Below, one piece after another: positions 15,643 to 16,495 of a stretch of 31,545 bases of DNA (position 1 is the stretch's first letter; every line of letters starts with the position of its first letter). The stretch comes from Caryophanales bacterium UBA3210. Lineage in GTDB: Bacteria > Bacillota_I > Bacilli_A > RFN20 > CAG-449. The stretch lies in the NCBI GenBank assembly GCA_002363635.1, contig DEWM01000046.1, positions 1 to 31,545 of the forward strand. Direction: 5' to 3'. The notes below the pieces were generated by a model. That model searched no databases. It was not told where the DNA came from and was given only the letters and a program-made list of their open reading frames with translations. Both the position numbers and the translations under genes were made by a program.

Positions 15643-16299
15643 TTATAAATATATTCTTTTATTAATTTCTAACATAATTGATACTACCTTACCTTTAATT
15701 TTGCCATTAAAAATACAATTTGGCACTAAGCTTCCTCTATATGGATAATTAATTTTGTATGAATAACCTAAATTCTTAATTCTATTAATTATTAAATCTA
15801 ATATTTCTTTGTCATAATAATTTTCTTCTATTCCAATACATATATCAGGAAATGGACTATCGTAAAAATGTGACGCCATTTTATCTGAAAATGAATGACA
15901 ATCTAATATTAATAAAACATCATCATTTTTTAATAATTTTTTAGCAATCCTATCTAATTTTTTATGATATTTATCATAATATTTTAAAACTTGTCGCTTA
16001 TATTTATTATCATGCTCATGATATTCAACTCCATCATATAAATGTGTATATACAACACCTTCTCCATATTTAGACATTACTTCCATTGAATCATCTCTAA
16101 ATCTTTCTACATCACAATAAAGTCTTGAATATTTAGGACTTATTTTTTTATATTTATAATCTTTAAATAGTATATCTATTCCTAAATCAGTCATTTCAAG
16201 ATTATATTTATTAAATAAATCTTTTGGTATTTTTAATCCTTTATAAAATTTTTTTGGCACTTTTAAAGACACATGTGGCATATGCATTAATATATTCAT
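15643..16299 (-). CDS. N-formylglutamate amidohydrolase-family protein under S-box control
   Basis: A ~218-residue FGase-family zinc hydrolase. Family patterns: MPHVSLKVPKKF at the N-terminus, SRLYCDVERFRDDSMEVM, GEGVVYTHLYDG, the metal-binding LLILDCHSFSD, FPDICIGIEENYYD, NYPYRGSLVPN, and VVSIMLEINKRIYL at the end. FGases deformylate N-formyl-L-glutamate in histidine breakdown, but no hut genes are visible. Start: the ATG at 16299 is preferred because AGAGG lies 8 nt before it, while the ATG at 16305 has only 2 nt spacing. The leader carries a SAM-I riboswitch and terminator, so expression should rise when S-adenosylmethionine is low. That points to a sulfur or methionine-linked substrate, for example N-formylmethionine (inference). 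Confidence 0.85.
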   Translation of the reverse strand: MNILMHMPHVSLKVPKKFYKGLKIPKDLFNKYNLEMTDLGIDILFKDYKYKKISPKYSRLYCDVERFRDDSMEVMSKYGEGVVYTHLYDGVEYHEHDNKYKRQVLKYYDKYHKKLDRIAKKLLKNDDVLLILDCHSFSDKMASHFYDSPFPDICIGIEENYYDKEILDLIINRIKNLGYSYKINYPYRGSLVPNCIFNGKIKGKVVSIMLEINKRIYL

Positions 16300-16324
16300 A
16301 TTCATTTCCTCTTTCTACCAAAAA

Positions 16325-16359
16325 GAGAAAAAGAAAAATCCCATCAACATGATGAGATT
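16325..16359 (-). terminator. SAM-controlled transcription terminator
   Basis: On the minus strand AATCTCATC (16351-16359) pairs with GATGGGATT (16337-16345, one G-U pair), then a long T-rich tract (complement of 16325-16336). The 5' arm can instead pair with the 3' strand of aptamer helix P1, forming an antiterminator (16349-16358 with 16378-16387). It lies between the aptamer and the FGase-family start. Confidence 0.88.
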
Positions 16360-16377
16360 TAATAGCAATTATTAATT

Positions 16378-16463
16378 ATCCCATCATTCAAGCTTTAGCA
16401 CCTTGCATACTGCAGGTTGCTGAAGAGTCATAGAGCTTGTCTCTCATCTTCTCTTTATGGTGG
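16378..16463 (-). promoter_or_regulatory. SAM-I (S-box) riboswitch aptamer, apparently lacking P4
   Basis: Read on the minus strand, the leader aligns with the S-box core without gaps from AAGAG to GCAACC. P1: CCACCAU/AUGAUGG (16457-16463, 16381-16387; one C-A mismatch). P2a: GAAGA/UCUUC (16447-16451, 16422-16426). K-turn with UGA opposite UAUGA. P2b: GAG/CUC. P3: ACCU-GCA/UGC-A-AGGU closing a 3-nt loop, flanked by the invariant CAGCAACC and GGUGCUAA. Only 7 nt separate GGUGCUAA from P1, too few for P4. Loop 2 CAAGC (16435-16439) can pair with J3/4 GCUUG (16389-16393), a 5-bp pseudoknot. Control would be transcription termination when SAM is bound. Confidence 0.88.
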
Positions 16464-16467
16464 TTTC

Positions 16468-16495
16468 ATTATAATCGTTTTTATTATTTATTCAA
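16468..16495 (-). promoter_or_regulatory. Promoter of S-box leader
   Basis: Minus-strand TTGAAT (complement of 16490-16495), 16 nt, perfect TATAAT (complement of 16468-16473). The predicted start at about 16461 coincides with the first bases of aptamer helix P1. The remaining stretch up to the Sel1 gene (16500-16679) is AT-rich with no feature I can support beyond a CTCCTA/TAGGAG pair around a long loop (16618-16662). Confidence 0.65.

Follow-up and report, generated by a model that had tools for sequence, protein, structure and literature searches.

Why should a riboswitch that answers to S-adenosylmethionine (SAM) stand in front of a gene of the N-formylglutamate amidohydrolase (FGase) family? 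The question is raised by the leader of such a gene on contig DEWM01000046.1 of Caryophanales bacterium UBA3210, of which the whole 31,545-nucleotide stretch (hereafter the window) was analysed. An earlier note, made from the letters alone, had placed the gene under an S-box (SAM-I) riboswitch and proposed a methionine-related substrate. The explanation that we favour as a whole, at a probability of roughly 0.55, is that a switch responding to SAM shortage turns on an N-formyl- or N-acyl-amino-acid hydrolase, which recovers methionine. Within this explanation, the switch, its ligand and the recurrence of the arrangement are well supported; the aptamer, the platform as read by sequence, the recurrent pairing, the protein fold and the lack of a methionine-synthase match are computed results. 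The association would extend the S-box repertoire by a protein family. Literature searches (open-licence papers, with related work covered by title or the start of the abstract) turned up no S-box FGase, and the earlier note knew of none.

A compact SAM-I aptamer with a terminator platform

The Rfam SAM-I family (RF00162) matches the minus strand of the leader at 16463-16381 over the whole model, scoring 55.1 bits (gathering score, 44.4; E 2.7e-10). P1, P2 and P3, the L2-J3/4 pseudoknot, the P2 kink-turn bases and the CAGCAACC...GGTGCTAA core are all present, which bears out the S-box that the earlier note had read in the leader. To that reading we add the absence of P4, on which the note made no remark: five bases stand for 25 consensus positions of RF00162. 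Because the P4 of the four-stem consensus is missing, the window aptamer is filed here as a SAM-I variant. The elements of the leader and the gene, all on the minus strand, are as follows.

16468..16495, minus strand: promoter-like site TTGAAT-16-TATAAT just upstream of the aptamer (10 of 12 matches, by consensus only)
16381..16463, minus strand: compact (P4-less) SAM-I aptamer; RF00162, 55.1 bits; our own model R1, 94.7 bits (the sequence is in the R1 training set)
16457..16460, minus strand: 5' strand of P1, CCAU
16436..16439, minus strand: L2 strand of the pseudoknot, CAAG
16389..16392, minus strand: J3 strand of the pseudoknot, CUUG
16381..16384, minus strand: 3' strand of P1, AUGG, shared with the antiterminator
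16378..16387, minus strand: antiterminator strand AUGAUGGGAU at the 3' edge of the aptamer, with 10 contiguous pairs (one G-U) to 16358-16349
16336..16360, minus strand: intrinsic terminator hairpin of 11 pairs, then a U run
16349..16358, minus strand: 5' arm of the terminator, able to pair with the 3' strand of P1
15643..16305, minus strand: FGase-family gene (PF05013), 220 amino acids from the first ATG and 218 from the likelier start at 16299

Between 15000 and 16800, no terminator-like site other than 16360-16336 was found (shuffle mean, 0.3); promoter-like sites in the same interval are no commoner than in shuffles (17 vs. a mean of 15.1). As ATGATGGGAT (16387-16378) is able to pair with ATCTCATCAT (16358-16349), i.e., with the 5' arm of the terminator, P1 and the antiterminator are mutually exclusive by sequence, and so are the antiterminator and the terminator. 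The hairpin and the ten-base pairing agree with the terminator, and with the antiterminator supplied by the 3' strand of P1, that had been described earlier.

We propose that this leader is an OFF switch acting on transcription. With ample SAM, P1 would be closed and its 3' strand not free for the antiterminator, so that the terminator would form and FGase would be off; when SAM is scarce, the 3' strand of P1 would pair with the 5' arm of the terminator, and FGase would be transcribed. This direction of control, on at low SAM, is very probable. In its P1-P3 stems, pseudoknot, core, terminator/antiterminator platform and regulation of metK, the system resembles SAM-I riboswitches (RF00162) of the terminating type, but it differs from them in lacking P4, in having only four strongly kept P1 pairs and in regulating a hydrolase of the FGase family.

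Covariation was examined in 34 distinct compact aptamers, which a pattern search yielded from loci retrieved by gene or through Rfam and which were then aligned (alignment A3). The search pattern allowed only 4-16 bases at the P4 position, and the spacer is short in all 34. With the SAM-I structure minus P4 laid on these sequences, 95.1% of 804 cells are paired, and pairing falls to 39.7 or 43.2% when the partner is slid by one column. Thirteen of the 24 pairs changed on both sides, with 90 such cells vs. 27.9 in shuffles. The L2-J3 pseudoknot is paired in 34/34, with compensatory changes at two of its four positions. The kink-turn is shorter by two bases in three loci (L007, L008 and L126) and by one base in L021, and the aptamers of some FGase relatives score under the RF00162 gathering score (L007, 34.0 bits; L008, 33.7 bits).

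Recurrence of the pairing

Model R1 was built from the 34 aptamers, 22 of which are FGase leaders, and its recovery of these training leaders is therefore no test. A search of the window and 83 loci (604,570 bases, both strands) gave 31 matches (E up to 1). E was 1.4e-5 or better for 29 of them, at 28 distinct places, and all 29 lie upstream of an FGase open reading frame (ORF) on the same strand. Counted by gene, a match lies upstream on the same strand in 23 of 76 FGase loci from named genomes, and in 9 of the 12 at 54% identity or more, so the pairing recurs among homologues, where the earlier note had suggested looking for it; most of the bacteria concerned are uncultured. Five FGase places stand outside the training set: L053/L102 (87.1 bits), L073 (80.2), L078 (69.3), L084 (40.1) and L033 (33.6). 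In L084 (Anaerovorax odorimutans SL.3.17), an S-box-like element and a terminator precede an FGase ORF of 83 amino acids, and the remainder of FGase was not seen in the next 700 bases.

Within the window's order, 20 FGase matches, fragments included, were found in 18 of 279 genomes, and R1 gave 87 matches in 72 of these genomes, a few low scorers being P4-containing (e.g., in G024). An R1 match precedes nine of the 20 FGase matches, where approx. 0.005 would arise by chance if each genome is assumed to have 1,300 genes. Mapped on a 70-protein tree, on which 27 rows carry it, the S-box label takes 11 changes (21.6 in shuffles), and well-supported branches force at least nine of them; the label is thus clustered and yet gained or lost repeatedly. 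The tree omits eight fragments under 560 bases, as well as L077, L079 and L080 (many stops); row L194 and the L172-L153 pair sit on long branches and are placed unsurely, and L053 counts as lacking an S-box, despite a second FGase on the contig that does have one. The platform recurs as well: among 28 FGase leaders, a terminator-like hairpin follows in 25 and an antiterminator of at least six pairs in 23, the hairpin scored as terminator in L073 and L078 including the likely ribosome-binding site.

That the aptamer is a chance resemblance, or that it serves another gene, has next to no probability. In four loci (L016, L017, L019 and L023), another ORF does lie between the switch and FGase, ending at the FGase start codon, but the covariation, the match above the gathering score and the recurrence with position and strand kept all tell against this idea, and in the window FGase is the first ORF behind the terminator. 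Pure chance resemblance was rejected on covariation and recurrence. A separate observation concerns genome G029, in which near-identical aptamers (L125 and L126) precede FGase and an unrelated unknown ORF, as if leaders had been copied or homogenised.

The ligand

In the genome of UBA3210 itself, a compact aptamer is followed by pduL, a TSCPD-domain gene and metK (Pfam). The order S-box-pduL-TSCPD-metK is found again in a congener (L256), where the Pfam scan, made of metK, confirms that gene. In five genomes from another family of the class, the compact aptamer is followed by priA, fmt, an unknown gene, a TSCPD gene and metK (by Pfam in L250, by eye in the rest). With metK behind this type of aptamer in the source genome, and with an unchanged core, SAM is the likely ligand, and the compact aptamer very probably binds it. 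In all 34 aptamers, G10, A11 and G12 are unchanged, as are A-A-C within GCAAC and GTG within GGTGC; U6 of P1 is kept in 34/34 and the neighbouring pair A5-U92 in 32/34; these kept positions are what we take to be the SAM-contact bases of SAM-I.

It is very improbable that the compact aptamer senses something else. SAM-I variants with a different ligand do exist: those sensing spermidine, according to PMC10853860, share the aptamer fold in varied form and are OFF switches. The missing P4 and the unusual downstream genes might be thought to point in the same direction. However, the spermidine variants, as PMC10853860 describes them, are changed in J1/2 and the P3 internal loop and precede polyamine genes, whereas the present aptamers retain the core and have metK among the genes behind them, in the same genome as the window aptamer. 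Base changes of the spermidine type in J1/2 and the P3 loop were not seen in the 34 aptamers, and no polyamine gene was recognised by eye among the surveyed downstream ORFs, approx. 20 of whose proteins were scanned with Pfam.

Two further genes share a switch with the SAM synthetase gene: the phosphate propanoyltransferase gene pduL (PF06130) in L254 and L256, and the methionyl-tRNA formyltransferase gene fmt in L249-L253. In the 41-genome set (the source genome, 76.5% complete, and 40 relatives), 11 RF00162 places are longer and contain P4 (L104, L105, L107, L108, L110, L112, L113, L114, L116, L121 and L123), and a metK-like ORF follows, by eye, in 11/11; the compact aptamers precede metK plus many other genes.

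The FGase-family protein

The ORF matches PF05013 over the whole domain (residues 4-220; 118.8 bits against a gathering score of 28.9). Since close homologues are mostly of 218 amino acids, translation probably starts not at the first ATG but two codons later (16299), at a second ATG that is also better spaced from the GAGG at 16311-16308. The predicted model of the protein has the fold of the solved PF05013 members, with an identity in structural alignment of 19% to PDB 2q7s and 15% to 2odf. Hydrolase activity is likely, most probably of a metal-dependent kind that acts on N-formyl- or N-acyl-amino acids. Directly downstream (15544-15068, minus strand) lies a gene of the YbaK/EbsC-type Cys-tRNA(Pro) deacylases, whose 153 bits fall just under the cut-off of 153.25; no terminator-like site was found between the two genes.

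The fold and the full-length Pfam match are shared with HutG (TIGR02017), the histidine-pathway N-formylglutamate deformylase, and with the solved structures. It is nevertheless hardly credible that the gene is itself hutG and the S-box incidental. The Pfam name and the fold would suit such an assignment, but the low identities to the solved members are accompanied by a score of 38.6 bits against the HutG equivalog, far below its cut-off of 278.75; urocanase had no match in the source genome (76.5% complete) and was found in one of the 41 genomes, where it was the one histidine-degradation enzyme searched for; and the S-box pairing recurs. The earlier note had likewise set the gene apart from histidine degradation. 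Its wider interpretation stands in part: SAM-I-type control of an FGase-family gene outside the histidine pathway is upheld by the recurrence, the HutG score and the urocanase search, while the methionine substrate is something that we still infer.

A partial parallel is offered by amhX, which is of the M20 type. According to PMC12452182, amhX (COG1473) sits in operons of metN, metI and metQ whose SAM or T-box riboswitches are contiguous. It is a metal-dependent hydrolase of the amidase/aminoacylase kind that is partly under SAM control; it differs from the present case in its family, its transporter operon and its contiguous riboswitches, whereas here a PF05013 gene follows a single aptamer with no adjoining transporter gene.

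Methionine recovery or another role at low SAM

Neither of two methionine-synthase families has a match in the 41 genomes, and the source bacterium seems unable to make its own methionine; for this reason, methionine recovery would make sense. In the explanation that we favour, the FGase-family enzyme would free methionine from N-formylmethionine or from a formylated or acylated methionine peptide. Taken by itself, a methionine-related substrate is about as probable as not. SAM control together with the apparent methionine auxotrophy nonetheless provides a functional lead, the release of methionine from blocked forms, for a family that is named only after HutG.

The main alternative accepts the SAM-I variant as real and denies that FGase acts on a methionine compound. 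The enzyme would then belong to an accessory programme of lineage-specific proteins that is switched on at low SAM (nutrient stress, competition or defence), with, for example, a peptide or a cell-wall fragment as its substrate. We regard this as possible, if less probable than recovery of methionine. It is opposed by the finding that FGase lies behind the switch far beyond chance and in separate branches of the tree, and by the genomes tested, which are without a methionine-synthase family match.

Several points weigh against methionine recovery, or against parts of it. Compact S-boxes precede many genes with no known role in methionine metabolism (of the 132 places surveyed below, only 10 have an FGase-like and 13 a metK-like ORF, the others being mostly unknown by eye); as a consequence, the S-box alone is no proof of a methionine-related substrate. 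In L025, FGase carries an N-terminal extension with homology to the stand-alone S-box genes L150 and L152, the other tested extensions showing weak homology or none; this speaks for a functional link of FGase with the switch, and at the same time makes it less compelling that a gene behind an S-box has to act on methionine. The Pfam name of the PF05013 family rests on HutG. No compact S-box was found at 53 of the 76 FGase loci (eight of the 76 have under 620 upstream bases). Among the 53 are three of the 12 closest (L014, L018 and L020), where Rfam also found none, L018 having only 344 upstream bases. The FGase gene is absent from all seven congeners searched. Two of the S-box FGase-like ORFs, L172 and L153, are very divergent and form a long branch, and L172 has no Pfam match. 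With regard to the switch itself, the strongly kept P1 pairs number only four, and thermodynamic folding, free of ligand and kinetics, prefers a long-range structure without a closed P1: the energy-minimal fold of the 155-base leader has -45.6 kcal/mol and includes the antiterminator, vs. -33.3 for closed P1 plus terminator, in a calculation that takes no account of pseudoknot, ligand or order of synthesis.

Other genes behind compact aptamers

The survey of downstream genes covered 132 distinct places matched by R1 or Rfam (a subset of the R1 matches was fetched), 130 of which span 100 bases or less. The downstream gene was taken as the longest ORF within 330 nucleotides, by which some may be misassigned; an ORF of at least 60 amino acids was present at 118 places. 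Besides the metK-like (13) and FGase-like (10) ORFs, the largest sequence clusters are mostly small unknowns (18, one place counted twice), PriA (7), other unknowns (6) and MoxR-like AAA ATPases (5 and 2). The operon of the PriA cluster continues to metK in all five cases followed further. A Pfam scan of 20 proteins behind S-boxes named few of them: FGase, AAA domains, AAA with peptidase M41, and QueT. The compact variant thus has a wide, uncharacterised gene set behind it, and since it precedes these genes, low SAM is a working condition under which they could be studied.

It might be speculated, although we consider it doubtful, that the compact P4-less aptamer commands a large undescribed regulon in gut Bacillota. 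Its lineage-specific members would be FGase, exchangeable small domains that stand by themselves or are fused to it, and proteins of the MoxR-like ATPase and FtsH-like kinds. Such a regulon would be turned on as a unit when SAM collapses, e.g., under methionine starvation or an attack on the SAM pool, and FGase would be an effector of SAM depletion and not merely a salvage enzyme.

Some individual loci may be added. Seven S-box FGase ORFs (L025, L070, L073, L078, L172, L153 and L193) carry N-terminal extensions of approx. 85-140 residues, of several different kinds. Among L127-L248, in Bacillota of this class, the genes behind the compact aptamer include a cluster of mostly small proteins (those scanned had no Pfam match above the cut-off), MoxR-like ATPases and proteins that look Sel1-like by eye. 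An AAA protein follows in L129 and L131, which belong to the same cluster, and that of L129 also has a Peptidase_M41 domain (FtsH-like). In the source genome, a compact S-box (L005, L255; 39.5 bits with Rfam, below the cut-off, and 81.9 with R1, which was trained on it) precedes a gene for a QueT-family ECF transporter, possibly a methionine-related importer. On contig C69 of the same genome, two identical 84-base compact aptamers (L003 and L002) lie 1.1 kb apart, each before a different unknown gene; the two are separated by an ORF that resembles a resolvase by eye.
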